22,310 bases of DNA from a virus. Below the pieces are notes generated by a model. That model had not been told where the DNA came from, did no database searches, and worked only from the letters and a program-made list of their open reading frames with translations. Of this stretch, positions 2,447-22,310 are shown one piece after another. The translations under genes and the position numbers were made by a program. The stretch lies in the IMG/VR virus record IMGVR_UViG_3300022743_000025, positions 1 to 22,310 of that record; one strand, written 5' to 3'. Position 1 is the first letter of the stretch; the number at the start of each line of letters is the position of its first letter.

Positions 2447-4075
2447 TTATTTATGAATATGCTCTGCTAGGAATTCTCTGTGAGTCGGTAGAGTATCAAT
2501 ATAAGCCATCACTTCTGCGCGATGTTCTAACCATTTGTTGTAGACTACTTCTGAGTAGTCATTGGGTTCACGGTACTTGGCATCTAGGTGACGCTTAATA
2601 TCAGCATCCATTGGATTGTAATTCATACCAGCCGCAATATACACAATGCCGCCCATACTAGTGTCAAAGGTTCGTGTACGATGCATTCTAGTACCAAAAT
2701 CACTTTGCACCTGTGCTTGATTGGCATGATAGCCAGACAAGACTGCACTGTTTATATTGGTCTGCGCAAACTCAATTTCACCCGAAACTGTTTTCCAATA
2801 TGGGGTATCGTTTCTGTAGCTTAACGCATAGTGATTGCTGATAAAGTCCTTGAAGCCCATGATTTGTGCTTGAAATGCACTGTTGAACAAATCAACATCA
2901 TACTTGGATACGTTGCCGTTGCGCATGGTCAATACTGCCACTAACTTGATAATAGCTTCATGAGTCAACATCAATCCAGTGCTCTCAAGTGGCTCAATGA
3001 ACCCATTGGCCAGTCCCACACCAACAACGTTCTTGACCCATGCACGTTCATGTACCCCGTGCTTGATTTTAATGTGTCTGAACTCTGCGGCGTCTGCTCT
3101 TGCGTCATCGGGGCAGACCATGCGATTGCTTTTTAGATGCTTACGGAATTGTTCTTCTGCCTGTTGTTCAGTTGCAAACTTGCTACTGTAAACATATCCA
3201 GTACCAATTCTGTGCCACAATGGAATATTCCATACCCAGCCAGCTTCAATTGCAGTACAACTAGTATAGTTTTCCATTTCTCGTTCTGCGTCTAGATATG
3301 GGATTGTAGTTGCAATAGCACGATCATTCAACAATGTATCATGAAAACTGATGAATGGTGTTTTTAATATTTGCTCTAATAACAAACTTCTAAAGCCAGT
3401 GCAGTCAATGAACAAATCTGCTTCAAGATATCCAGAGTTCTTTGTGCCAATCTTCTCAATGCTACCATTATCTCTCAACACAACATCATCAACCATCACT
3501 TCATCAAGTATGTGTGTCATACCCGATGGTAAGCAAATATGATCACGCAAGTATGCCCCGAAGGCAGTTGCATCCATGTGATATGCAGTGTCTGCATCAA
3601 AGTTAAACCCGCGAATTCTATGATCTTCGTTCTTGGTCATCTTTGTCGCGTCTGTCATCAAAATGGCATCGTGATAGAACTCTGCAAAGTTTTGTGGGTC
3701 AAGTTCAGTATGATCTGCTTTGTACAAGAACCATTCCATGATATTACGTGGCTTGTCTGTTACGTCAAAGATACCAAATGGATAGTGAAATGTATGTGGC
3801 TTTTCTTGTGGATTTTCCCTAAAGTCAATGAACTTGATACTAGTCTTGTAAGTAGCGTTACAATGCGGCATCCAATCTTCATCTTTCAAATCTAGTAAGT
3901 GAAAGTATTGATTGATATGTCCAATAGTGCTTTCACCCACGCCAATTGTTGGGATGTTTGGACTCTCAATTAGAGTTAATTTGATGTTTGGTAGTTTCTT
4001 GGCAATTGCCGCTGCTGTCATCCAGCCACTGCTACCACCACCGACGATTGTAATTGATTTAATATTGTGGTACAT
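2447..4075 (-). CDS. Flavin-dependent halogenase (tryptophan-halogenase family)
   Basis: Full-length (542 aa) member of the tryptophan halogenase family, which uses FADH2, O2 and halide to make HOX and passes it to an aromatic substrate through a lysine. Landmarks in order: FAD-binding 'GGGSSG' at residues 12-17; 'IPTIGVGEST' at 41-50; 'TYKTSIKF' at 75-82 with Lys77 matching catalytic Lys79 of PrnA/RebH; 'DCTG' at 224-227; the diagnostic WxWxIP as 'WVWNIP' at 280-285; and 'FIEPLESTG' at 359-367, with Glu364-Ser365 where PrnA has Glu346-Ser347. All key residues are present, so it is probably active. Phage halogenases of this type are known (VirX1 of cyanophage Syn10), and family membership does not fix tryptophan as substrate. 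No flavin reductase is seen here, so FADH2 would come from the host. The start overlaps the oxygenase gene by 17 bases and there is no clear Shine-Dalgarno, so translation is likely coupled. Confidence 0.92.
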   Translation of the reverse strand: MYHNIKSITIVGGGSSGWMTAAAIAKKLPNIKLTLIESPNIPTIGVGESTIGHINQYFHLLDLKDEDWMPHCNATYKTSIKFIDFRENPQEKPHTFHYPFGIFDVTDKPRNIMEWFLYKADHTELDPQNFAEFYHDAILMTDATKMTKNEDHRIRGFNFDADTAYHMDATAFGAYLRDHICLPSGMTHILDEVMVDDVVLRDNGSIEKIGTKNSGYLEADLFIDCTGFRSLLLEQILKTPFISFHDTLLNDRAIATTIPYLDAEREMENYTSCTAIEAGWVWNIPLWHRIGTGYVYSSKFATEQQAEEQFRKHLKSNRMVCPDDARADAAEFRHIKIKHGVHERAWVKNVVGVGLANGFIEPLESTGLMLTHEAIIKLVAVLTMRNGNVSKYDVDLFNSAFQAQIMGFKDFISNHYALSYRNDTPYWKTVSGEIEFAQTNINSAVLSGYHANQAQVQSDFGTRMHRTRTFDTSMGGIVYIAAGMNYNPMDADIKRHLDAKYREPNDYSEVVYNKWLEHRAEVMAYIDTLPTHREFLAEHIHK

Positions 4076-6318: not shown

Positions 6319-7047
6319 TTATCTATATGAATATACAATTACGAGACCGTTGCTGCCGTATTCACCAGCACTGTGTCCCCTATATTGACCAGAACCCCAA
6401 TCCGTGACGTTGGCTGGTCCGCCTGCGCCCGGGGCACCCGTTGGCCCAATACCGTGTTGTACCCCGAATCCTAAATTTCCGTGATTTCTAATGTGTGCTC
6501 TTGGTCCACCGAAGTAACCGCTGCCACCAATAACACTGGCAGTAGAGTGACCCACACCATTAATATGTCCGCAGCCACCGCCGCCGTGTACTGCGAATTG
6601 TTGACCACCAGCACTGTTGCCTCCGTGCCCACCACTGTGACTATATTGTTGATTTGCACCATAGCCGCCAATGGCACTTATGTATCCGCCGAAGCTACTC
6701 GTACCACCTTGACCAGCTGCTGCGTAATAGGCCACATAACCGCCACCACCGCCCACAGTTACTGCAACTGAGCCAACACCTGATACGTTATAAAGCCCTT
6801 CGGCATAACATCCTGCTCCACCGCCTTCGCAGTACCCAGCTCCCCCACCACCGCCGCCAATTAGCTTAACGTGTACAGTTGTTGCACCAGGGTTATACCA
6901 AGTACCACTTGCTGGGAACGATTGTACATCAATCAATGCCCCATAATCGTAGGACAAGTTAGAAGGACTGCCCTGACCAGCAGTAGCAGACGATTGACTT
7001 GATCCGTCATTGAATGTAATACCCGTTGAATTTAATGTTGCTGTCAT
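6319..7047 (-). CDS. Glycine-rich adhesin-like fibre-tip protein (paralogue 1)
   Basis: 242-aa member of the local trio of glycine-rich paralogues. It has the N-terminal tag 'TGITFNDGSSQSS', a short beta region ('ATTVHVKLIGGGGGGAGYC'), a glycine-rich core with 'YYAAAGQGGTSSFGG' and 'YSHSGGHGG', and the closing strand 'NGLVIVYSYR'. This resembles the glycine-rich phage domain family and, by analogy only, the gp38 adhesins of T-even phages such as S16, whose polyglycine-II sandwiches carry receptor-binding loops. Residues ~145-230 differ strongly from the other two copies and are rich in His and Asn. ATG 7047 is preferred to one at 7083: AAGGGC sits just upstream of 7047 and the longer version would overlap the preceding gene. 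The coding strand is unusually G-rich because of GGN codons. Confidence 0.8.
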   Translation of the reverse strand: MTATLNSTGITFNDGSSQSSATAGQGSPSNLSYDYGALIDVQSFPASGTWYNPGATTVHVKLIGGGGGGAGYCEGGGAGCYAEGLYNVSGVGSVAVTVGGGGGYVAYYAAAGQGGTSSFGGYISAIGGYGANQQYSHSGGHGGNSAGGQQFAVHGGGGCGHINGVGHSTASVIGGSGYFGGPRAHIRNHGNLGFGVQHGIGPTGAPGAGGPANVTDWGSGQYRGHSAGEYGSNGLVIVYSYR

Positions 7048-7055
7048 GTCTGCCC

Positions 7056-7715
7056 TTATGTATACGCAATAACAACACAGCACCCTGACGTACCAGTGGT
7101 ACCAGAGCCTCCGTCATTTGTTCTACCACCATTGGCTCCTGAACCCCATGCACCGGGGCCGTTGTTTTCCCCATGAGTTGTATTTCTGTTTTGTGCGCCA
7201 CCACCGCCAAAGAAGCTAGGACCACCGCCTGCAGGTTTGCCATGGCCTGCACTGTTACCATGCCCAGTACCTGTACCACCCTCGATATTGATTTGTCCCC
7301 CAGAAGACCCACCACCGTGGCCGCCACCATGGCTGTAATTTCTGTTAGAACCATAACCGCCGCTGGCGCTGATAAGTGAGCCAAAACTGCTAGTGCCACC
7401 ATCACCTGCTGCTGCGTAATAGCCCACGCCGCCGCCGCCACCGCCAATAGTCACCGCATATGTTGCGCCAGGGCTTACACTGAAAAAGCCCTCTGCATAA
7501 CCGCCAGAACCGCCCGCTTCGCAATATCCTGCGCTGCCGCCGCCACCTCCTACGATTTGAACAAGAATAGTACTACAGTTGCTGGGCACTGTATAAGTTC
7601 CGTTACCAGTGTATGAAGTAATGCTGATTGGCTTGCCTCTGTCTCTGGCATAGTTAGTTGATTGTGTTGAGCCGTCTGCGAATGTGACGCCCGTTGAACC
7701 TAATGTTACTGACAT
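7056..7715 (-). CDS. Glycine-rich adhesin-like fibre-tip protein (paralogue 2)
   Basis: 219 aa, the middle copy of the trio. N-terminal 'TGVTFADGSTQST', then 'TGNGTYTVPSNCSTILVQI' leading into GGGGG, core 'GVGYYAAAGDGGTSSFG' and 'YSHGGGHGGG', ending in 'CCVVIAYT'. The first ~140 residues align without difficulty to both neighbours. Residues ~140-208 ('GGTGTGHGNSAGHGKPAGG' onward) do not, apart from Gly/Asn/His richness. AGGAAG lies upstream of the ATG. Its stop is 9 bases from the start of paralogue 1, so the three are co-translated. Role as receptor-binding tip is inferred from composition, position after the fibres and the constant/variable layout. Confidence 0.8.
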   Translation of the reverse strand: MSVTLGSTGVTFADGSTQSTNYARDRGKPISITSYTGNGTYTVPSNCSTILVQIVGGGGGSAGYCEAGGSGGYAEGFFSVSPGATYAVTIGGGGGGVGYYAAAGDGGTSSFGSLISASGGYGSNRNYSHGGGHGGGSSGGQINIEGGTGTGHGNSAGHGKPAGGGPSFFGGGGAQNRNTTHGENNGPGAWGSGANGGRTNDGGSGTTGTSGCCVVIAYT

Positions 7716-7724
7716 ATTTCTTCC

Positions 7725-8384
7725 TCACGCATACGCATAGACTACAACCATACCTGCTCTTCCGGCCTTGCCGCCACCGCCATTACCTGTAGTACCAGGG
7801 CTTGCACCGCCACCTGGTGCACTGTGCCCGATTTGTTCTCCGCCGCTATGGCGAGTACCAAAACTGCCGCCCCAGTATGTAGGAACTCCGCGTGGTCCCC
7901 AGCTACCGAAACCGTTTGTATGCCCGATACCACCGCCACCCGCTAGCGTCACTTGACCACCAGACCCAGTACCACCATGACCGCCAGTATGACTATAGTT
8001 ATTATTTGCCCCATAGCCACCACTGGCCGAACAATAACCTCCAAAGCTACTTGTGCCCCCAGCACCAGCGCCTGCATAGTAACCCACGCCACCACCACCA
8101 CCGCCGATGGTAACTGCCACAGTTTGGCCTGCGCTGACACCGGGAATGAATCGTTCCGAATATCCACCAGCGCCACCGCCTTCGCAGTGCCCCGCACTAC
8201 CGCCACCACCGCCTTGTACTTTTACAAGTAGTCGTGTACACCCAGTTGGTACTGTATACGTACCGTTACCGGTAAACGTAGTAATAGAGATAATCTGCCC
8301 GTAGTCATACCCAGCGTTTGGGTTTGTTCCTTGAACAGTACCATCACTATATTGAAGTCCGAGAGGAGTTAATGTAACTGCCAT
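7725..8384 (-). CDS. Glycine-rich adhesin-like fibre-tip protein (paralogue 3)
   Basis: 219 aa, first of the trio in transcription order, starting 2 bases after the stop of the S74 fibre. N-terminal 'LGLQYSDGTVQGTN', then 'TGNGTYTVPTGCTRLLVKV' into GGGGG, core 'GVGYYAGAGAGGTSSFGG' and 'YSHTGGHGGTGSGGQ', ending 'GMVVVYAYA'. The variable segment (~150-210) has 'GPRGVPTYWGG' and 'GTRHSGGEQIGHSAPGG', unlike paralogues 1 and 2. No strong Shine-Dalgarno is visible ahead of its ATG, suggesting coupling to the S74 fibre gene. Of the three it keeps the most complete conserved core. Confidence 0.8.
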   Translation of the reverse strand: MAVTLTPLGLQYSDGTVQGTNPNAGYDYGQIISITTFTGNGTYTVPTGCTRLLVKVQGGGGGSAGHCEGGGAGGYSERFIPGVSAGQTVAVTIGGGGGGVGYYAGAGAGGTSSFGGYCSASGGYGANNNYSHTGGHGGTGSGGQVTLAGGGGIGHTNGFGSWGPRGVPTYWGGSFGTRHSGGEQIGHSAPGGGASPGTTGNGGGGKAGRAGMVVVYAYA

Positions 8385-9517: not shown

Positions 9518-12500
9518 TAAAATCTCCCCACTACAACTTCAATAGTTGCAAATTCTTTGTCTGCTACAGTGCCCAATGCTTTACCAAGAATACATCCTGG
9601 ACGATACAGAGCATCTGTCATTCGTTCTGCATAACCTTCGTATGCACTTGTTACCAATACATCACCCTTTTCTACTGGGCCACGCACTTTACATGGCACA
9701 CGTCCTGTAAATGCCACAGGAAGACCAGTTGCTTCACTGTTCATCAAATAAGCTGGGTCAGTACTAATAACACCCGCTACTCGTGTGTCATGCGTTTTCT
9801 TGGTTGTTGTAATTTCAGATGTTCCACCAAATACAACAACTGTGGCTGGCTCATAACTATTATCGGCAGCATAAATTTCTGCCAAGTCAGCATACTTTGC
9901 TTGACTTGCAACACCGATAAAGTTAGTTGCTGTCAAGTTTGCACCAGCATCACGCAATGCCAATGTGTTTGCAGTTGCCGTAGTAGTTGCGTTGTATAGC
10001 GCACTACTAAAGTTAACCCAGTTATAAGTGTTACTTACGTTATCATATACATACTTGTATAGCGAACCAGTATTGGCTGCAAACCATTCATCACCCTGCA
10101 ATGGTGTTGTTGGGGCTGTGTTACCAGTAAAGTTAGTGACAACGTTTCTGTTGTTGCGTGTGATGTTTGCTGCCACAGAGATGTTAGCAGTCAAAGTCAC
10201 AGCACCAGTGATTGTCGCACCAGCAAAAGTAGGACTTGCGTTTGTTTGCAAGTTCTGAGGGTTAGTCAATGTAATTGTGCTACCACTGACTGTTGCACCA
10301 AAGCCGTTGCTACCCGCAAATGTTAATGTACCGCCACCAGCCACGCTACCAGTACCACTCGTACCAGCCAAGTTGATAGTTGTACTAACTGCTTGTGATG
10401 TTAGAGCAGTGATACGTCCATAAGCGTCAGTTGTAATAACTGGGATAGCAGTGCTGCTACCAACAGTAGTCACACCTGGGCCCATTGTAGGTAAACTGAT
10501 GGCTGCGCCAGAGATAGTCAAGTTACCAGCACCAGAGCTTGTGCTGACTACACGATTACCCGAGTCATACACTGAACCAGCATAGACTGCGCCGCTGACG
10601 CCCGCGCCACCTGTAATTCTTAACGCACCTGTAGTAGTACTGGATGCGGCAGTGCCAGTTGTGATTTGCAAGTAACCACTTGTGCTTGCATTACCATGGA
10701 ATCGTGCCACTTCTGCGTTAGCATAAAAGCTGCCAGTAGCAATAACGATATCGTTGTATGTACCAGTGCTATCAGTAGCAAGAATCAAGTTACCACCAAG
10801 TGCAGAACCGTTTCTTGCACTTGCAAACAAGTAACCATCGTTGGCTTTTGTAATTGTATACGCTGGGTCAGCAAACAAGTTGCCAGTGAAACCCATGTCC
10901 ATGAAACCAGTACTACCATCAGTAGTGTTGTTTGGATATGCAACAATGTCAGCACTACCTGTACCGCTGTTGTTGATCAGAGCACTTTGAACATAGAACT
11001 GACCAGCATTAACAGCTTGACTTGATTGAGTAGCAATAATACTTGGGTTGATCAACGGAGTGCTTGCGGCATTGTAACCAATATATGCCGCACTGTTAAC
11101 GTTTAAGTTACCCCCAATACCTGCACCACCAGTTACTACAATCGCCCCAGAACTAATACTTGTACTTGGTGTAGCGTTGGCAAAGATCGCGCCGCCTGCA
11201 TAGATAGTATCATAAATGATACCAGTATCAGCAAAGTTAATTGTTGTGCTTGTTGGTTCTGTTCTTACATTACTAAAGAATGTCCAATAGTTGTTATTGT
11301 GATTACGAACAAAACCTGTGTGAGCATATACGTTAGCAGGTCCGCCAACAAAGTGACTGTAGAAACCAGTTTCGTAGTTGTATGGGTAGCTAGGGGTGAC
11401 TTGGAAGTAGGCCATTGGACTACTTGTATTCAATGTGCTTGTACTGGTTGCAACAAGGTTAGGTGTAAAGATGTTACCTGTAACATACAAGTCGCCGCCA
11501 AAGTAACTTGTTGCACCTGCACCGATACCACCAGTGATTACAAGAGCGCCAGTACCTGTACCCGAACTCACAGTTGAGTTTGTGATTGTTGTTACACCGG
11601 TAACACCTAATGTACTATTAATCTGTGTGGCACCATTGGTTGTCAGGCCAGCAAATGTTGGGGTTCCAGTTGTTTGTAAGTTCTGAGGAGTAGATACACT
11701 GATTGTGCTGCCGCTAGCAGCAACCAACATACCGTTAGTGCTAGTAAATGTTAACGTGCCGCCACCGCTTACACTGCCCGTACCACTAGTACCAGCTAGG
11801 TTAATTGTTGTGCTTACTGTGCTGCTTGTTAATCCAACAACACGACCATATGCGTCAATGGTAATGACTGGAATACTTACACTGCTACCAACAGTCGTTG
11901 CACCAGGACCCGCTGTGGGCAATGAAACAGATAAAGTAGGAGCTGTTCCGCCAATAGTTAATGCACCATCACCCGAACTTGTTAGTGTTGTTACAACACG
12001 ATTACCTGCATCATAAACTGATCCAGAGTATGTTGCACCCGCAACTCCCAAACCGCCAGCGACTACAAGAGCGCCAGTAGTTGTACTTGAACTTGTCGTC
12101 GTGCCAGTGATGTTTGCAACTGTACTATTTGCGCTTGTGAACAAACCTGTAGTAAATGTACCAGAGCTTGCAGTGCTACTACCGATAGGAGTGGCCTGAA
12201 TACTGCCTGCATATAATGCGCCTTGAATGCCAACACCACCTGCGACTTGTAATGCACCAGTAGTTGTGCTTGTGGCTACTGTGGTTGGCAATACACTGAC
12301 GTTAGAACCAGAAGCCCACATGACTTGTGTACTTGTACCAGTACTACCAGAATAAACACGAATAACGTCATCACCTGCACCAGCGCTGGCTTCTGCGCTA
12401 ATGTATGCTTTTCCGTCTACGGACTTAACGCCACCAAGACTTGACCATGCGCTGCCTGCACCAAAACCTTCGTAGCTGCTGATATCGCTGTTATAGCGAA

Positions 12501-13141: not shown

Positions 13142-13149
13142 TATTTATC
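13142..13149 (-). promoter_or_regulatory. T4-type late promoter octamer (GATAAATA)
   Basis: The - strand reads GATAAATA followed by CATTAA, one mismatch from the T4 late consensus TATAAATA. It is intergenic, directly after the terminator hairpin and 22 bases before the ATG of the 1200-aa fibre. Transcription would start near 13136 and leave a short leader carrying GGTGAG. Confidence 0.55.
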
Positions 13150-13579: not shown

Positions 13580-16500
13580 TTAAATCGCTTGATAATCACG
13601 CTTAATACGCATGATTGTGTTGTTATTTGCTGTTGTTGCCTTCAATTGCGCAATGTTTCCGCTTGTACCAGCAGTCCATGTCACTAGAGTATTACCCGCT
13701 GTACATAAGCTGCTGATTACTGTAACGCTTGCAGTTCCAGCACCCGAACCATTACCATTATGAATCATCAATAGCTTGGTGATTTCTCTGACATTTGACC
13801 CCTGAATAGTAGAAGTAATTGTATACTCTGCGCTGCTGTATGAGTTGGCAAACAAGTTATCTACCACCGCAGTAATACCAGCATTTGCCACAGTCACGTT
13901 CGGAGTAAGAGTCACGAACCCGCCCTGTGAATCAATACCATATTGGTTAGCTTGATTACCAATTGTTCCAGTTGTAAAGATCAGACCAACGTTACCAGCA
14001 GTTGTCAATGCTGGGTTAGTTTGTACGCTATTGATACCGCTTCCGTCGCTCAATGTACCAATGGTAGCAGAAGTAGACAAGGTGCGAACATCAATAATGT
14101 CGCCTGCTGTTGGATTTTCAGTGAATGTCAGTGTTGTTCCACCAGTGATTGCATAAGCAAGAGATGGGATTTGAATCACACCGTTGATACTTACGATTGT
14201 TGCTGCTGTAGTTGTAGCAGTAGACAATGTGTAAGAAGCAGTCAAACCAGTTGCCGTGAACTGTTGATCAGTGATAACAGTAAAGGTATTTGAAGGAACT
14301 TGCCACGACGAACCATTATAGAATTCAAGAGAATTCAACGATGTGTTGTATCGCAACATACCAGCAACGTCAGTATAGCCCAAGCTGCTTGGGCGCTGAC
14401 CCGTAGTACCAGCTGGCATCAACATAGAATCGTTACTGTTGACAACTAGTTTAGCACCGTTGGTCAATGCGTTTGTGCCCAGAGTATTACCAATCACAAC
14501 TGTTTCGTAAGTGCTGTTTGGTCTTGCCCACAACAAGTTAGTCGTGTTTACACCAGCAACTTTGAAGTCATAGTTGCTTGACTGTGATCCGTTGAAAGTA
14601 GCTGCGCCGCCGTGATATACGTTACCACCAAAACTTGCTCCGCCGTATACTTGCAATGCCCCAGTGTTAGCACTGACTGTGCCTGTGGCATTTGTTGGCA
14701 ACTTCAATACTAAAGTACCATTGTTACTTGCGTTACCGTGGAATCTTGCAACTTCTGAATTAGCGTAAAAACTGCCGACCCCGATGACTATATCATTGTA
14801 ACCGCCCGCGTAGTCTGTTGCTAGAACTAAGTTACCACCGACTGATGTATTAGCGCCTGACGCAAACAAATATCCATCGTTCGCCTGAGTGATGCTGTAC
14901 AATGGGTCGCTGAATGCATCCCCAGTGAAGCCAACGTCCATCCAACCGTGATCGTTGTTTGGGCCTGGATAATTGTTGCCATAGGCAATATAGTCACTTG
15001 ACCCAGTATTTGTGCCGTTGATAATAGCATGTTGTGTGTACTGAGTACCCGGACCCGTAGCGCTTGTTCCACGCTCAACAGTAAATGCATTAGTTAGAAC
15101 TGTTGTCTGAGCGCCTGTACCAACAAACAATTGGCCAGCAGCATTCAAATTACCAGAAGTAGCAATACCGCCCTGCACTACTAATGCACCACTAGTAGTA
15201 TCGTTGGTTGAGGCTGTATTAGAGATAGTAATTCTACCATCAAAGTTTGCAAGATTAGCAAAGTTTGAAGTACCGATGACCGAAAGATCCGATTGTAATG
15301 TTACTGGTTTAAGATTATACAATGTACCATTAATTTGCACATCGTTATAAAATATAGAACTACCACCAGCATCAATCTTTAACGCAGTAATGGCTGCGTT
15401 GCTGCCCATTGGAATAGTATGAAGTTCTAACCAAGTACCTTGATTAGTGTCTGTAAAATTCTCTGCTGCTCTGAATACTAGACCAGCACTCACAGTAGCA
15501 TTGCCTAATAGGAACCCAGTTGACCCATAACCACGACTAATGAATCCTCCGAGAGTATCTGTTGCAAGCACTGCCGACGGAGCACTTGCAGTACCTCTAG
15601 CAGTACGAGTAATCATCAACGATGGGAAGTTACCAGCACCAACGCTGTCCAGCGTAATTTTACCAGCAGTACCTTCTTTAGCAACAATGTGCGCAACAGA
15701 TGTAGTATTAAACGGAGTAGCATTGTTCTGATTTACAACAAATGTTGAAGTTTGTCCAGGTGCACCATTGCCATATCCAACAACGACATTACCAAGAAGT
15801 TGGTGATAGCTAGAGTTTGCAACACCCACATTCAAATTACCAGTAATACCGATACCGCCATTTGGCACTACCAACGCGCCTGTTGTAGTATTTGTGCTTG
15901 GGGTGGTTGCCTCTGCAACAATATTTCCCCAACTTGTTGTTGTTCCCACTACGCTAAGTGATGTTATGTTACCAACAGTTGTAATATTTGGCTGGCTTGC
16001 AGTACTTAAAGTACCTGTCAACACTGCGCCCACGTTACCAATCGTAGCTGCTTGAACTGTAGTAGCAGTTGTAGATTGTAAGTTTGTAGAACCACTCACT
16101 GTTAGACCAGTCAATGTACCAAGACTTGTTACGTTTGTCTGAGCAGCAGTGCTTAGAGTACCTGTCAACACTGCGCCAGTATTACCGATAGTAGCCGCTT
16201 GAACTGTAGTAGCAGTTGTAGATTGTAAGTTCGTAGAACCGCTTACTGTTAGCCCAGTCAGGGTGCCCACAGTAGTGATATTTGATTGATTGGCGCTTGA
16301 ACTATTCAATGTACCGTATAAGATAGCGCCGCTGTTACCGATAGTAGCAGCCTGCAAGGTAGTAGCAGTAGTAGATTGTAAGTTTGTAGAACCGCTTACA
16401 GTTAGACCAGTTAGTGTACCAAGACTTGTTACGTTTGTCTGTGCTGCTGTGCTTAATGTACCTGTTAGAGTAGCACCAGTGTTACCGATAGTAGCAGCAT

Positions 16501-19495
16501 TGAATGTTGTCGCACTCAAAGTTGTAAATGCACCTGTGCCAGGCGTTACGTTACCAATTGCTACTGCTTGTAATCCGCCTGTTGTTGCTGTAGTGAACGC
16601 AGCAGTGCCAGGGGTTACGTTACCAATTGCCACTGCTTGTAATCCGCCAGTGGTCTGAGTCGTGAACGCAGCAGTGCCAGGGGTTACGTTACCAATTGCC
16701 ACTGCTTGTAAGCCATTTGTAATGACTGTAGTAAACGCACCAGTGCTTGCAGATGTACTACCGATCGGGGTCGCTTGTATACTGCCTGCATACAGTGCCC
16801 CGACAACGCCTGCACCACCAGCCACCTGTAGCGCACCGCTAGTTGTGTTTGTCGCGGCAGCAGTTGAGTTGGCAGTTAGAATGCCTGCAACAACTTCTGA
16901 TCCATTAATGACTTCTTTATTAATATAAGTCGTTGTAGTAGTACCAACAACATACAAATTACCTGAAATAATAGTATTACCGCTGTTGATAGTTGTGTTC
17001 CCAGTGCTTGCACCAAGATTCAATGTTGTTGCTGCGCCAAATGCATTAACTGTAGTGGCTACAGTGTTGTATACGTTTTGAGTTGACTGTGTACCAACCA
17101 GAGTTGGGTTCGCTAAAGTAGCTGTACCACTTGATGCGCCCATGTTTAATGTTGTAGCAGCGGAACCCATGTTTAGAGTTGTAGCATTTTCATTAAACAC
17201 ATATCCAGCTGCTTGTGTTGTAACAAGAGCACCGCCAGCAGTTACTGTAATGTTTCCATTAACCTGAGCAGTGCTATTTGTGTAGACTGCCCCGCCGATT
17301 CCCACTCCACCAGCTACTACAAGAGCACCGTTAGTATATGCAGTGCTTGCAGTGTTGTTTGTTACTTGAGTTATACCGCTTGCAGTTAGTGTAGTAAATG
17401 CACCAGTGCTCGGAGCAGAGTTGCCAATTGGTGTGCTGTTTACTGCTGTTGCAGTTGTCAAGCCAAGTTGAGTAGTTCCACTTGCTGTCAGCGTAGTAAA
17501 CACAGCAGTACCAGGGCTAGCATTACCAATTGCTACAGCTTGTAAACCGCCTGTTGTTGCTGTAGTGAATGCTGCTGTACCTGGAGTTACGTTACCGATG
17601 GCTACTGCCTGAAGACCACCCACTGTCTCAGTGTTAGATGTTAATGTAGTAAATGCACCAGTACTAGGAACAGAATTACCAATTGGGGTACTGTTAAGTG
17701 CTGTTGCAGTTGTCAAGCCAAGCTGTGTTGTGCTAGATGTTGTTAGTGTAGTAAATGCGCCAGCAGCTGGAGTAACGTTACCGATAACACCTTGGAAGCT
17801 TGCCCCAGTGATTGTGTTTAGTGTACTTGACCCAGATACGTTAACTGTAGTAAATGCACCAGTACTAGGAACAGAATTACCAATTGGGGTACTGTTAAGT
17901 GCAGTTGCAGATGTTAGACCAAGAGTTGTGCCATTGGCAGTTAAAGTAGTAAATGCAGCAGTATTGGGGACAGAATTACCAATTTGTGTATTCTGAATAC
18001 CGCCAGAGAATTGGCCCAATCCACCAGCATACACAGCACCTTGAATACCAACGCCACCTGCAACAGTGATAGCACCTGTAGTTGTACTTGTAGCTGCAAC
18101 AGTTGAACGAATAACAAACACGTTGGCAGCATTGATACGACCATATTCGTTGTTTGCGTTAGAGCCACCAGGAGCGAATACAATATCATTCAAGCCACTG
18201 GTTAAAACAAGATTACCGCCACCAGTAGTGACATTACCTTGCACAAGCAAGTAACCATCGTTTGGTTTTATGATGCTGAAGCCAGCATAGTTGTATGTGC
18301 TGCTTGCGATACCCATGTCAATGTAAGTATCGTTTGCACTACCGTTGTTTGCAGTAGCAACATAGTCGCTACTTGCAAGAGATCCTGAGTTAATGTTTTG
18401 ATGATTTAACTGGGCGTAGCCGTTGAAGTTTGTGCTACTTTGTAAAACTGTCTGCGGTTGATAAACAAATCCAGTATTAATACCAGCATACAATGCCCCA
18501 AAGCCCGCAGTGTTACCAAAGAATTGAGCACTATTACCCGTGACGTTCACAACGTTAACGTTACCACCAGTAACAATGTTGCCTGCAACAATGGCGTTGC
18601 CACCAATGTATACGTTAGCACCAAATCCTGCACCACCAGTTACTTGTAATGCACCGTTAGTATACGATAGCCCATTGTTATTTGTTGAGTTAGTGACTTG
18701 TGTTATGCCACTTGCTGTCAGTGTGGTAAATGCAGCAGTACCAGGGCTAGCATTACCAATTGCTACTGCTTGTAATCCACCCGTCATTGCTGTAGTGAAG
18801 GTCGCAGTACCAGGAGTCACGTTACCGATTGCTACGGCTTGTAAGCCACCAGTAGTCTGAGTAGTGAATACTGCCGTTCCAGGTGTTACGTTACCGATTG
18901 CTACTGCTTGTAATCCACCAGTAGTCTGAGTAGTGAAGGCAGCAGTACTAGGAGTTACGTTACCAATAACTCCTTGAAAACTTGCACCGACTATTGTGTT
19001 TAGAGTACTTGCCCCAGTGACATTAAATGTCCCACCCACAGTCTGAAATCCAGTGACTGAACTGTTACCAACTTTAATGTTTGCATAGCCAAGATTTAAG
19101 ATACCTGTAGTACCAGTACCAGTATCACTTGTAGCAATAGCCTCAAACGCTTGATCAGCTTCAACCCACATCCATGCAGTGTTGACTTGATTTCCGTATG
19201 GTAGCATAGGGCTCAAGTTACGATTGACCAGCATACCGATATCGTAGCCGGTCAATGAGCCGCTGTAGCCGTTGTTAAACACGACCACTGGGTCGTTAAT
19301 GTAAGTATTCGTAGCGTTTACAATTGCGGTATTACCAGTGTTCGCTAGGAACAAGTTACCGTTGATAGTGACGTTACTGTTAAGAGTAACTGTGGGTGCA
19401 AATAAATTACCAGTTAGCGATCCAGCTTGCAGCTTCGCATACGCAACAATCGTGCTATCTGTAATCTGGTTATTCTGAATCCGGGTAATAGACAT
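13580..19495 (-). CDS. Giant repeat tail fibre protein (1971 aa)
   Basis: Very long fibre or virion protein. Residues ~1-95 form an N-terminal region with 'NGNLFLANTGNTAIVNATN' and 'YDIGMLVNR', the same kind of start as in the gene at the right edge. The body contains three arrays of a 23-residue unit ('GGLQAVAIGNVTPGTAAFTT' core), a four-copy array of a ~49-residue unit ('LTGLTVSGSTNLQSTTATT', 'QAATIGN', 'TGTLSTAAQTNVTSLGT'), many 'TTGALxVxGGxGxxGxxYxG' modules and two 'NDGYL' modules. Near the C terminus come an 'MLRYNTSLNSLEFYNGSSW' + 'VSINGVIQIP' module and a final ~90-residue domain ('SAEYTITS' ... 'MRIKRDYQ') shared with the 492-aa fibre. AAGGA sits 7 bases before the ATG, inside the 3' arm of a hairpin. 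Likely a long trimeric fibre; exact virion location unknown. Confidence 0.82.
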   Translation of the reverse strand: MSITRIQNNQITDSTIVAYAKLQAGSLTGNLFAPTVTLNSNVTINGNLFLANTGNTAIVNATNTYINDPVVVFNNGYSGSLTGYDIGMLVNRNLSPMLPYGNQVNTAWMWVEADQAFEAIATSDTGTGTTGILNLGYANIKVGNSSVTGFQTVGGTFNVTGASTLNTIVGASFQGVIGNVTPSTAAFTTQTTGGLQAVAIGNVTPGTAVFTTQTTGGLQAVAIGNVTPGTATFTTAMTGGLQAVAIGNASPGTAAFTTLTASGITQVTNSTNNNGLSYTNGALQVTGGAGFGANVYIGGNAIVAGNIVTGGNVNVVNVTGNSAQFFGNTAGFGALYAGINTGFVYQPQTVLQSSTNFNGYAQLNHQNINSGSLASSDYVATANNGSANDTYIDMGIASSTYNYAGFSIIKPNDGYLLVQGNVTTGGGNLVLTSGLNDIVFAPGGSNANNEYGRINAANVFVIRSTVAATSTTTGAITVAGGVGIQGAVYAGGLGQFSGGIQNTQIGNSVPNTAAFTTLTANGTTLGLTSATALNSTPIGNSVPSTGAFTTVNVSGSSTLNTITGASFQGVIGNVTPAAGAFTTLTTSSTTQLGLTTATALNSTPIGNSVPSTGAFTTLTSNTETVGGLQAVAIGNVTPGTAAFTTATTGGLQAVAIGNASPGTAVFTTLTASGTTQLGLTTATAVNSTPIGNSAPSTGAFTTLTASGITQVTNNTASTAYTNGALVVAGGVGIGGAVYTNSTAQVNGNITVTAGGALVTTQAAGYVFNENATTLNMGSAATTLNMGASSGTATLANPTLVGTQSTQNVYNTVATTVNAFGAATTLNLGASTGNTTINSGNTIISGNLYVVGTTTTTYINKEVINGSEVVAGILTANSTAAATNTTSGALQVAGGAGVVGALYAGSIQATPIGSTSASTGAFTTVITNGLQAVAIGNVTPGTAAFTTQTTGGLQAVAIGNVTPGTAAFTTATTGGLQAVAIGNVTPGTGAFTTLSATTFNAATIGNTGATLTGTLSTAAQTNVTSLGTLTGLTVSGSTNLQSTTATTLQAATIGNSGAILYGTLNSSSANQSNITTVGTLTGLTVSGSTNLQSTTATTVQAATIGNTGAVLTGTLSTAAQTNVTSLGTLTGLTVSGSTNLQSTTATTVQAATIGNVGAVLTGTLSTASQPNITTVGNITSLSVVGTTTSWGNIVAEATTPSTNTTTGALVVPNGGIGITGNLNVGVANSSYHQLLGNVVVGYGNGAPGQTSTFVVNQNNATPFNTTSVAHIVAKEGTAGKITLDSVGAGNFPSLMITRTARGTASAPSAVLATDTLGGFISRGYGSTGFLLGNATVSAGLVFRAAENFTDTNQGTWLELHTIPMGSNAAITALKIDAGGSSIFYNDVQINGTLYNLKPVTLQSDLSVIGTSNFANLANFDGRITISNTASTNDTTSGALVVQGGIATSGNLNAAGQLFVGTGAQTTVLTNAFTVERGTSATGPGTQYTQHAIINGTNTGSSDYIAYGNNYPGPNNDHGWMDVGFTGDAFSDPLYSITQANDGYLFASGANTSVGGNLVLATDYAGGYNDIVIGVGSFYANSEVARFHGNASNNGTLVLKLPTNATGTVSANTGALQVYGGASFGGNVYHGGAATFNGSQSSNYDFKVAGVNTTNLLWARPNSTYETVVIGNTLGTNALTNGAKLVVNSNDSMLMPAGTTGQRPSSLGYTDVAGMLRYNTSLNSLEFYNGSSWQVPSNTFTVITDQQFTATGLTASYTLSTATTTAATIVSINGVIQIPSLAYAITGGTTLTFTENPTAGDIIDVRTLSTSATIGTLSDGSGINSVQTNPALTTAGNVGLIFTTGTIGNQANQYGIDSQGGFVTLTPNVTVANAGITAVVDNLFANSYSSAEYTITSTIQGSNVREITKLLMIHNGNGSGAGTASVTVISSLCTAGNTLVTWTAGTSGNIAQLKATTANNNTIMRIKRDYQAI
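14085..14400 (-). other. 'RYN...EFYNG...SING' module in the 1971-aa fibre (approximate)
   Basis: Codes for 'GMLRYNTSLNSLEFYNGSSW', then 'YTLSTATTT', 'VSINGVIQIPSLAYAI' and 'LTFTENPTAGDIIDVR'. The same order occurs in the 492-aa fibre (about 19900-20200) and makes up most of the stand-alone 142-aa protein. Confidence 0.65.
15965..16540 (-). repeat. Array of four ~147-base coding repeats (approximate limits)
   Basis: Consecutive in-frame copies of a unit coding for 'QAATIGNxGAVLTGTLS', 'xQTNVTSLGTLTGLTVSGST', 'NLQSTTATT'. Unit length is 147 bases, with one 153-base variant carrying 'YGTLNSSSANQSNITT'. Matching points at 16130-16140 and 16430-16440 are exactly 300 bases apart (147 + 153). Copies differ mostly at synonymous sites. 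Confidence 0.75.
16515..16740 (-). repeat. 69-base coding repeat array 1
   Basis: Units coding for 'GGLQAVAIGNVTPGTAAFTT' plus three residues. The sequence GTTACGTTACC recurs at 16545, 16614 and 16683, exactly 69 bases apart. Neighbouring copies are nearly identical in DNA. Confidence 0.8.
17480..17625 (-). repeat. 69-base coding repeat array 2 (two units, approximate)
   Basis: Two adjacent units of the same 23-residue repeat ('GGLQAVAIGNVTPGTAAFTT', then an 'AIGNASPGTAVFTT' variant), between longer 'STPIGNSVPSTGAFTT' relatives. Confidence 0.65.
18705..18970 (-). repeat. 69-base coding repeat array 3 (four units, approximate)
   Basis: Four consecutive units of the 23-residue repeat near the N-terminal side of the 1971-aa fibre: 'IGNVTPSTAAFTT', 'IGNVTPGTAVFTT', 'IGNVTPGTATFTT', 'IGNASPGTAAFTT', joined by 'xxTGGLQAVA'. 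Confidence 0.75.
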
Positions 19496-19498
19496 TAA

Positions 19499-19550
19499 TC
19501 AATCCTTAGCTTGCCAATATATTACGTATTTATGCTGGCTAAAGGATTGA
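19499..19550 (-). promoter_or_regulatory. RBS-sequestering hairpin in the leader of the 1971-aa fibre gene
   Basis: On the - strand UCAAUCCUUUAGC (5' arm, 19550 to 19538) can pair with GCUAAGGAUUGA (3' arm, 19510 to 19499), giving 12 base pairs with one bulged U and a ~27-base loop. The 3' arm contains the AAGGA Shine-Dalgarno 7 bases before the ATG at 19495. Read-through RNA from the 492-aa gene would mask this site. Confidence 0.6.
19527..19534 (-). promoter_or_regulatory. T4-type late promoter octamer (CATAAATA) in the hairpin loop
   Basis: CATAAATA on the - strand, one mismatch from TATAAATA, followed by CGTAAT. The expected start point is near 19521, after the 5' arm of the surrounding hairpin, so late transcripts would keep a free Shine-Dalgarno. 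It sits in the 59-base gap between the 492-aa and 1971-aa genes. Confidence 0.55.
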
Positions 19551-19554
19551 AGTC

Positions 19555-21033
19555 TTAGACGTTGAAGTAGGTGCGCTGGATTCTAAGTTGATTAGATGCT
19601 GTAGTGCCTTTGGCGATCAAATTCACTGTGCCACCAGAGATATTTGAATAGAATGTCAAATAGCTCGTACCAGTGTTGATATTACCAATTGTACCCAATA
19701 CTGTGGCAGATCCGTTCTGAGTCAACAAGACTTTCAGCATAGAAGTATCTGTATTATTGCTACTTGAGACTACGTATTCAGCACTTCTGTACAAACTTGC
19801 ACTAAAACTGTCAACAATAACGTTGGCTGTTCCCACTGCTACGTTACCAACGTCAACTAAGTTATAGTCAAGAGTTGTAGTACCTGGACTGCCGATAAAA
19901 CGAACGTCCACAATATCAGTGACTTGTGGGATTTCAGAGAATGTAATTGTAGTTCCAGTTACTGTGTATGCACCGCCCGGACGTTGTAACGTACCGTTAA
20001 TACTCACAATAAGACCCGTTGCTGTTGCTGTCTGACTTAGAGTAAAGCTATTGCTTACCCCATCAGGAGTAATCTGTTGGTCAATAATTGTATTAGTAAA
20101 CGGAGTCCATGCAGATCCGTTGTAGAATTCAATAGTGGCCAGATCAGAGTTATATCTGAAATATCCAGCAACCCCTGCAGGACGTGCTGTTGTGCCGCCA
20201 GTTGGGAGTTTTACCGCAGTATTGTTAGTGAATGTAACTACCCCTGTTTGATAAGGGGTGATTGTATCTGCTACGACATTACCAAAATAACTTGCTGTAG
20301 TTATTACATTAGATGCCGTGATATTACCACCGACCGTCAGCCCAGTCAAAGTACCAAGACTTGTGATGTATGGTTGTGCAGCAGTAAGCACGTTGCCATT
20401 TATGTTACCAGTAAGATTGCCCGTTACGTTACCAGACACACTACCAACAAATGTTGTCGCAGTCATTACGTTTGCAGAAATATTTCCACTATAAGTCGTA
20501 AAGTACGATGCAGCATTTGCGTTTGCATAAATCTTTGACATTGTGTATGTCAAGTTTGCAGTTACGTTACCAACGTTCTGATTTAATAATGCGATACTGT
20601 CGGCAATGGTATAAGTTGTACCAATAGTGATGGCATTGCTCATGCTACCCTGTGTCGGGGTACCAATAGAGACATTATTGCCACTGAATCCTTGATTAGA
20701 TACCAGAGTCGCCAATGATGCGAAGGCCAATGAGCCCGCACCATCAGTGTACATGATGCTGTTTGCGCTGCCACCGTTGATTACTAGACTAGATACACTA
20801 CCGAGATTGAGTTTGAATCCACCTTCTGTTGTGATAGTGTTGCCCAACACATAGATATTGCCCATGTGTACGTTACCATTAACGTCAAGAGCATAGTTTG
20901 GTGTAGTATTGTTTATACCCACACGTCTATTGTTTACGTCCCAATACATTAAGTTCGCGTCAAGGGCGATATTCACCCCTTGGCGTTCCAAGTTGGGTTG
21001 AAGCATTGGTCCGTTAATCTTGCCGATAGCCAT
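19555..21033 (-). CDS. Tail fibre/virion structural protein (492 aa)
   Basis: Fibre-type protein. The N terminus has 'NLERQGVNIALDANLMYWDV' followed by 'RVGINNTTPNYALDVNGNVH', a common beta-structured start of phage fibres. The middle holds Asn/Gly/Thr-rich strands including 'GNVTGNLTGNINGNVLTAAQ' and 'ITSLGTLTGLTVGGNI', a relative of the 49-residue repeat in the giant fibre. Next is the 'YFRYNSDLATIEFYNGSAW' ... 'VSINGTLQRPGGAYTV' module, and a C-terminal ~90-residue domain ('YRSAEYVVSS' ... 'LRIQRTYFNV') matching the end of the 1971-aa fibre. AAGGAG precedes the ATG. It looks like a short-shaft version of the giant fibre. Virion position is not known. Confidence 0.8.
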   Translation of the reverse strand: MAIGKINGPMLQPNLERQGVNIALDANLMYWDVNNRRVGINNTTPNYALDVNGNVHMGNIYVLGNTITTEGGFKLNLGSVSSLVINGGSANSIMYTDGAGSLAFASLATLVSNQGFSGNNVSIGTPTQGSMSNAITIGTTYTIADSIALLNQNVGNVTANLTYTMSKIYANANAASYFTTYSGNISANVMTATTFVGSVSGNVTGNLTGNINGNVLTAAQPYITSLGTLTGLTVGGNITASNVITTASYFGNVVADTITPYQTGVVTFTNNTAVKLPTGGTTARPAGVAGYFRYNSDLATIEFYNGSAWTPFTNTIIDQQITPDGVSNSFTLSQTATATGLIVSINGTLQRPGGAYTVTGTTITFSEIPQVTDIVDVRFIGSPGTTTLDYNLVDVGNVAVGTANVIVDSFSASLYRSAEYVVSSSNNTDTSMLKVLLTQNGSATVLGTIGNINTGTSYLTFYSNISGGTVNLIAKGTTASNQLRIQRTYFNV

Positions 21034-21041
21034 AGCGCTCC

Positions 21042-21470
21042 TTAAGCTGGCACGTTAGTGCTATTGATATTATGAATTACAACAATCGTAGTTGGGTTGA
21101 TTGTGCCCAATGGGGGTGCTGTACTAAATTGAATACCAAAGCCACTAACAGTATAGTGAGTTCCCGGTTGTTGATAAACACCACCAACGAATACTGCAAC
21201 TGCATTAGGGTCTGTCTCTGCTTGTGACATAGAGAAGTTGATAGTCATACCATCACCAGGCCCAAGAGTATCAACTACAATCTGCACTGATCCGATTTTA
21301 GCAATCTGACTCCATGCATTGTTGTAGAAGAATTCAATACGATTGGTTGCTTGATTGAAACGAATCAATCCGTTTGTAGGAGCATCGCCATAAGCACTGC
21401 TTGGAACTATTGGGAGTTTCGCAGCCTGTGCCCCGTTTACCAAGTCAGGATTTTTAAGAAATCTTGCCAT
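21042..21470 (-). CDS. Stand-alone fibre-module protein (142 aa)
   Basis: Small virion-type protein built from one module. Residues ~27-130 read 'YGDAPTNGLIRFNQATNRIE', 'FFYNNAWSQI', 'INFSMSQ', 'VAVFVGGVYQQPGTHYTV' and 'IQFSTAPPLGT', matching in order the module near the C-termini of the 492-aa and 1971-aa fibres. The N-terminal 'MARFLKNPDLVNGAQAAKLP' is particular to this protein. Such small beta modules can serve as adaptors or decorations; the exact role is not known. It sits 8 bases upstream of the 492-aa fibre and directly after the 103-aa gene. Confidence 0.7.
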   Translation of the reverse strand: MARFLKNPDLVNGAQAAKLPIVPSSAYGDAPTNGLIRFNQATNRIEFFYNNAWSQIAKIGSVQIVVDTLGPGDGMTINFSMSQAETDPNAVAVFVGGVYQQPGTHYTVSGFGIQFSTAPPLGTINPTTIVVIHNINSTNVPA

Positions 21471-21471
21471 T

Positions 21472-21783
21472 TTAGAATCCTAGTGAACTTACTGTTGCCG
21501 TTACTGAGTTTGATGCACTGACGTTTGCATAAATGGTGTCACCGTTGGCCAATACAAACTTTTCTTGGTAAATGATCAATGTGTTATATGCACTGATAGT
21601 TACGTTACCGTAAAGTACTGTGGTATTGTTTGCTACGTTTGCTGTGCTTGGGGCAACATAAATGTTTGCTTGCACACTGCTACCTGTGTAATTGCACAAG
21701 TGAATGGTTGTCACTGCGCTATTACCAGAGCTTACGTATACTGGAACTGCCGTTGTTGTTAATGCTGTATTCTGAATTGCCAT
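21472..21783 (-). CDS. Small beta-rich virion protein of unknown function (103 aa)
   Basis: 103 residues, rich in Val/Thr/Asn/Ala with alternating hydrophobic positions. Segments such as 'AVTTIHLCNYTG', 'ANIYVAP', 'YQEKFVLANGDTIYANVS' and 'VTATVSSLGF' suggest a single beta-sandwich domain. I recall similar small proteins ('xxTIYLCNxG ... KFVLxxGDxI') among structural genes of marine T4-like phages, with no assigned role. AGGATAAC lies upstream of the ATG. It is tightly packed between the edge fibre gene (12-base gap) and the 142-aa gene (1-base gap). No signal peptide or membrane segment. Confidence 0.65.
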   Translation of the reverse strand: MAIQNTALTTTAVPVYVSSGNSAVTTIHLCNYTGSSVQANIYVAPSTANVANNTTVLYGNVTISAYNTLIIYQEKFVLANGDTIYANVSASNSVTATVSSLGF

Positions 21784-21795
21784 TTTGTTATCCTG

Positions 21796-22310
21796 TTATC
21801 CGAAAATAATACTGTAGACAATGCTCTTGGTCTTGTTCATTAACTCAACATTGCCGTATTGTGAATTTGATACTGTCAAACCAGTTCCACCACCGCCAGG
21901 AGCTGTCGTGCTCCAAAGTTGCACACCGTTAACGTTGCTATAGATAGACTTGTTATAGATGTTCAAGTTTGCACTTAGAGTAGGAGTTGGGTCTTGACTA
22001 AGGTGAGAGATGAGAGTATCTGTTGTCGTAGTAGTTGCAATGTTTGCAGTGTAGTAGCTACCGTTGATAACTTCACTGATTTGCCATGCGCCAACCGTTT
22101 CACTCCAAGTGATCATAGCGTTTGCGCTAGATCCGCGATTCACAAGAATGTATGCACCTAGTGGGTTAGGACTAGTTGCCCCAGCATTAAGTGTGATGGT
22201 GTGATCTGTGATCATAGTATCAGTAGTAGAATAGGTCTGGGTATTACCTGAGACCAGCAAGTTACCCTCAATGATAACGCTACCACTACTGATTAAAATT
22301 TTGTCTGAGG
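21796..22310 (-). CDS. Fibre/virion structural protein, C-terminal part (start beyond window)
   Basis: About 170 residues are visible; the frame is open to the right edge with no in-frame ATG at the expected place, so the start lies outside. The visible start 'ILISSGSVIIEGNLLVSGNT' followed by 'YSTTDTMITDHTITLNAG' and 'GAYILVNRGSS', 'ITWSETVGAWQI' is a module found near the N termini of cyanophage-type structural proteins and mirrored at the starts of the 1971-aa and 1200-aa fibres here ('IGMLVNR', 'VGFLFNR...ALYWSE'). The end, 'GNVELMNKTKSIVYSIIFG', is probably complete. A TTG at 22258-22260 could be read as a start but would cut the module, so it is not used. Confidence 0.7.
   Translation of the reverse strand, partial: SDKILISSGSVIIEGNLLVSGNTQTYSTTDTMITDHTITLNAGATSPNPLGAYILVNRGSSANAMITWSETVGAWQISEVINGSYYTANIATTTTTDTLISHLSQDPTPTLSANLNIYNKSIYSNVNGVQLWSTTAPGGGGTGLTVSNSQYGNVELMNKTKSIVYSIIFG

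Follow-up and report, generated by a model that had tools for sequence, protein, structure and literature searches.

A Late Promoter Inside a Leader Hairpin Predicted to Mask the Shine-Dalgarno Sequence of a Giant Fibre-Like Gene in a Jumbo T4-Like Phage

Leader Hairpins in T4 and Related Phages

The control of late genes by a leader hairpin that hides the Shine-Dalgarno sequence has so far been described for a handful of genes and is explained as a protection from early expression. The leader hairpin of gene e is experimentally known; its late promoter lies in the hairpin region, the Shine-Dalgarno sequence is masked on the longer RNA, the late RNA lacks the 5' strand of the stem, which begins 1 nt past the nudE stop codon, and the early read-through RNA reportedly yields about 100-fold less product (PMC3014915). 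Lysozyme and homing endonucleases are gene classes that T4 controls in this way (PMC3014915, PMC2988022). In particular, I-TevI, I-TevII, I-TevIII, and segB of T4 and mobE of phage Aeh1 are homing endonuclease genes located in early or middle units, some of them also autorepressed, and in all of them a late promoter lets the late RNA escape masking (PMC2988022). The late capsid gene soc has an inhibitory leader structure on the longer RNA as well (PMC3014915); in the predicted fold its Shine-Dalgarno sequence is in the loop. The T4 literature does not require that such structures be conserved in close relatives.

The leader analysed here, which precedes a gene of 1971 aa in an uncultured phage, belongs to the gene e/I-TevI kind of device. 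It differs from that of gene e in that the upstream operon seems to be late and the gene is giant and fibre-like, from the endonuclease leaders in that those serve homing endonucleases of early or middle units, and from that of soc in the position of the Shine-Dalgarno sequence, most of which is inside the stem. The gene class and the transcriptional setting make the usual early/late explanation doubtful for this leader.

The Phage and Its Gene Order

The window, i.e., the whole stretch of DNA that was analysed (22,310 bases, a complete virus record), is part of the genome of a freshwater jumbo phage of the T4-like type. The tail-sheath stabilizer that it encodes shares 31–34% identity with those of Agrobacterium phage Atu_ph07 and Pseudomonas phage PA5oct, and a 33% match in Escherichia phage 121Q covers part of the same protein; among named phages, no relative of the window was found by DNA and none by the first 100 aa. 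The minus strand carries, in this order, genes of 170, 103, 142, 492, 1971, 123, and 1200 aa, and the order 170-103-142-492-1971 is common to the relatives (Table 1). The 1971-aa product, which has no match in Pfam or PHROG, is called fibre-like on account of its neighbours, its homologues, and its repetitive beta-rich sequence; a structure model of its C-terminal 547 aa is poor, with a mean pLDDT of 42.6 and confidence restricted to the all-beta stretch of the last ~100 residues.

Two further features of the minus strand concern the tail genes. A tryptophan-halogenase-like gene (2447-4075) is located among phage tail genes (phrog_2928), and three adjacent genes at 6319-8384 are all assigned to phrog_863 (tail fiber assembly), an arrangement that resembles a tandem duplication.

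Table 1. Features of the 1971-aa gene, its leader, and the genes upstream of it, in window coordinates.
Feature	Position	Strand	Sequence	Remarks
1971-aa gene	13580..19495	-		fibre-like by homologue context
3' arm of hairpin	19499..19510	-	GCT-AAGGATTGA	from sequence and folding
Shine-Dalgarno of 1971-aa gene	19503..19508	-	TAAGGA	most of site inside 3' arm
Late-promoter octamer	19527..19534	-	CATAAATA	in loop; motif, conserved position in relatives
Family-specific element 5' of late promoter	19535..19548	-	AATCCTTTAGCCAG (window version)	overlaps 5' arm
5' arm of hairpin	19538..19550	-	TCAATCCTT-(bulged T 19541)-AGC	from sequence and folding
492-aa gene	19555..21033	-		upstream of 1971-aa gene; weak PHROG tail-fibre matches
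142-, 103-, and 170-aa genes	21042..22308	-		upstream operon; 170-aa gene cut by window end

The Late Promoter of the 1971-aa Gene

The hexamer TAAATA is scarcer in the window than expected (5 occurrences vs 16) and the longer form ATAAATA is found at three sites, all on the minus strand. Those at 13142 and 19527 are at the proper promoter distance ahead of a gene, while that at 2448 precedes an ATG by only some 6 nt, too near to it, and is therefore probably not a promoter. A search with the N-terminal 265 aa of the giant protein as the query retrieved 31 IMG/VR loci, and all 25 nonredundant relatives with a visible start have NNTAAATA 27–40 nt ahead of it and a Shine-Dalgarno sequence about 10–16 nt ahead of it. 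A profile search, whose hits overlap partly with the phages of the previous one, yielded 80 loci, whose distinct leaders number 63; 53 of these leaders have both a Shine-Dalgarno sequence and a promoter located at -26 to -46. In the contigs of the relatives, TAAATA followed by a Shine-Dalgarno sequence and an ORF was counted 130 times, vs 24–46 times for each of four control hexamers and 82 times for a fifth control, which overlaps the TAAATA motif. The motif and its conserved position make a late promoter belonging to the 1971-aa gene itself well supported.

The late promoter of T4-like cyanomyoviruses is published as NATAAATA, which the octamer of the window fits, and the passages on this motif describe no leader hairpin (PMC2984593). 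Compared with the cyanomyovirus promoters, the family of the 1971-aa gene has in addition an element upstream of the promoter and a strong G at position -2. In the window and in leaders L234-L313 this arrangement approximates GCARGCC-n-TTTCCTACGGCYRYG-TAAATAC; its core YACGR is present in 17 of 61 family leaders vs 1 of 104 other late leaders, and the element is also retained in leaders devoid of the hairpin.

The 1200-aa gene has another form of insulation than the hairpin of the 1971-aa leader: its late promoter, GATAAATA, is directly preceded by a terminator-like hairpin whose tail is rich in T (13175-13150, minus strand).

The Hairpin and the Predicted Masking of the Shine-Dalgarno Sequence

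The hairpin occupies the minus strand between the stop codon of the 492-aa gene (19555) and the ATG of the 1971-aa gene (19495), and its 5' arm begins 4 nt past that stop codon, close to it as in T4 e. The stem is composed of 12 bp (9+3) with one bulged U. An earlier note on this DNA had described a 12-bp stem that buries AAGGA and bears the octamer in its loop, and this description is accurate by both sequence and folding. The T4-type late promoter is placed between the two arms, so that the 5' arm is present solely on RNA read through from upstream; the RNA of the promoter, with a start inferred near 19521-19522, would be without it.

Other identities of the hairpin were rejected. The 3' arm is followed by UUAAUGUC, with no U-run on the transcribed strand as an intrinsic terminator would have, and there is no terminator-like site on the minus strand between the 492- and 1971-aa genes, nor did the test used detect one in any family leader between the upstream stop codon and the promoter. 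A known RNA family is ruled out by the absence from the window of any Rfam match above the gathering score.

The masking was expressed as the energy required to open the Shine-Dalgarno sequence on the read-through RNA and on the RNA started at the promoter. The values for the window are 9.8 and 0.5 kcal/mol, respectively, with folding parameters at 37 °C, lower natural temperatures being expected to stabilise the stem; the leader of T4 e gives 12.7 and 0.6 kcal/mol by the same metric. In the computed folds, the read-through RNA forms the hairpin whereas an RNA starting near 19522 does not, and the Shine-Dalgarno sequence is computed to be paired on the former and free on the latter. The leader of soc, tried as a second positive control, does not stand out, the metric viewing the Shine-Dalgarno sequence alone.

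When the sequence 5' of the promoter was shuffled, 13 of 4000 shuffles reached 9.8 kcal/mol (shuffled mean 2.1), a p value that is optimistic because the site had been picked for its striking look, the surveys of the family and of the contigs being a fairer test. The presence of a rare inverted repeat as such was discarded, since 9-bp repeats are at chance level in the window (11 vs 8.6 expected); the unusual feature is the placement of the repeat over the Shine-Dalgarno sequence with a promoter in its loop. A mechanism in which the site is masked solely on the read-through RNA is likely, and the T4-like mechanism that the earlier note had proposed is well supported at the sequence level by the similar score of T4 e and by homologous leaders that share the layout with unrelated stems.

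Upstream Transcription and the RNA That Would Be Silenced

The window ends inside its 170-aa gene. In most relatives the homologue of this gene is preceded by a late promoter of its own, and few further TAAATA are found in the relatives' upstream operon (170-103-142-492-aa homologues) before the site of the giant gene. Since this operon is late in the relatives, the RNA read through into the 1971-aa gene is probably late too, and late read-through, not early RNA, is probably what is silenced; for the same reason an uncoupling of the giant protein is likelier than a guard between early and late expression. The best explanation, which we favour with some reserve, is that the gene combines its own late promoter with a hairpin masking read-through, and that the giant protein is in this way dosed apart from the upstream late operon. 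The upstream RNA, carrying both arms, would form the 12-bp hairpin and hide the Shine-Dalgarno sequence, so that the giant protein would be poorly made from it, as computed, while the RNA begun at the loop promoter, without the 5' arm, would be translated, as its geometry and folding predict. The main effect would probably be that the giant protein is no longer made from the upstream late message but under its own promoter, in an amount set separately; the silencing of any early read-through would be a by-product.

According to the classical interpretation, the hairpin silences early or middle RNA until late transcription begins, as in T4 e. The anatomy matches that of T4 e, and in the published T4 cases a late gene is carried on early or middle transcripts (PMC3014915, PMC2988022), but in the relatives the directly upstream genes are driven by a late promoter, and upstream sites resembling sigma-70 promoters are no more frequent than chance would give (6 vs 10.3 expected, by a consensus that may differ from the early promoters of this phage), which makes this interpretation unlikely. 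The blocking of early read-through, with a strictly late protein as its purpose, had been advanced in the earlier note and is unsupported; its other suggestion, that the hairpin sets the ratio of the giant protein to the product of the 492-aa gene, fits the late operon of the relatives better. When the operon upstream is late as well, the usual explanation is insufficient, and protein dosage is a testable alternative.

The Stem in Relatives and Homologous Leaders

The nearest relatives (L001, L002, L004, and L025) do not have such a stem; the structure is therefore not kept in close relatives and, by this comparison, the stem is dispensable in the lineage. Among 61 nonredundant family leaders, on the other hand, a gain of at least 8 kcal/mol was obtained in six (the window, L248, L252, L258, L271, and L291) vs 0.21 expected, and one of at least 6 kcal/mol in eight vs 0.89 expected. 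The stems of masked family leaders are unrelated to each other, as illustrated by the pairs of arms TCAATCCTT/AAGGATTGA, GTTTTCCTT/AAGGAAAAC, TTTCCTTG/CAAGGAAA, and ATCTCTAATTTT/AAAATTGGAGAT. The survey of 117 late leaders in the contigs of the relatives gave three cases, including the window, with a gain of at least 9 kcal/mol (0.06 expected) and four with at least 8 kcal/mol (0.18 expected). With near relatives stemless and distant ones bearing unrelated stems, the exact stem is, as far as these leaders indicate, not inherited, yet the layout recurs far above chance. The stem conservation whose absence the earlier note had named as a refutation is indeed missing in the nearest relatives; the recurrence in distant homologues offsets this solely for the class of element, not for the exact stem.

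The recurrence also bears on an accidental origin of the pairing, by which the conserved pyrimidine-rich element before the promoter resembles an anti-Shine-Dalgarno sequence and pairs by chance with no effect that matters. A p of ~0.003 per leader with several leaders available to be noticed, the conservation of the element in hairpin-free leaders, and the stemless near relatives are in its favour, but the class excess corresponds to a few per cent of false positives at such strength and the pairing reaches past the Shine-Dalgarno core (TTGA with TCAA), and an accident is accordingly improbable.

The 5' arm, beginning 4 nt past the stop codon, is within the footprint of a terminating ribosome and would be covered by one that stops at 19555, which counts against masking. 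It is nevertheless very improbable that the giant protein is made from the polycistronic RNA solely when its neighbour is translated, with the ribosome that finishes the 492-aa gene opening a hairpin closed by default: the stem of T4 e is still nearer to its upstream stop and its read-through RNA is the one reported as poorly productive (PMC3014915), and the promoters of the remaining masked family leaders are 32–128 nt past the upstream stop, with little room for contact in most.

Returning to the masking of read-through between late genes, a broader proposal can be made tentatively, with somewhat less than even confidence: the device would operate between two late cistrons, with translation limited to messages started at a gene's own promoter, dosing a giant fibre-like protein apart from the fibre operon that reads into its gene, and would have arisen repeatedly at the same leader, with unrelated stems, in environmental jumbo T4-like phages.

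The same arms were searched elsewhere in IMG/VR and four matches were found, of which only that of phage contig L112 precedes a start codon. On its minus strand near 12253, the 9-nt arms of the window flank a GATAAATA, followed by an ORF starting MSIPGQQNINVG; the identity of these arms to those of the window is probably convergent.

The Same Layout Before Other Genes

A scan of IMG/VR with the pattern AACTCCTT...TAAATA...AAGGAGTT detected 67 places, 46 of them with a start and an ORF behind. Of the controls, AATAAT in place of TAAATA gave 29 matches in 28 contig stretches, an ORF being present in 11, and a scrambled 5' arm gave 11, with an ORF in 3; the distinct leaders, counted by eye, are about 17 vs about 4 and 2, respectively. 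The genes behind such leaders, from the scan or the contig survey, encode a GH19 endolysin (PF00182, phrog_181), an HNH/NUMOD3 endonuclease, a T4-type terminase large subunit, a tail tube protein, and an HNH-like protein below the Pfam cut-offs. That this layout turns up repeatedly in uncultured phages, on stems of unrelated sequence and in front of fibre-like, terminase, tail-tube, endolysin, and endonuclease genes, suggests that the regulatory module is a general one and evolves easily.

In the contig survey, the promoter-in-loop hairpin with the greatest strength is that of the GH19 endolysin (L182/L217, on the 354-kb contig G014), whose leader is a functional parallel to T4 gene e; in L218 and L220, relatives of this leader, the promoter-in-loop fold is kept while the sequence differs.
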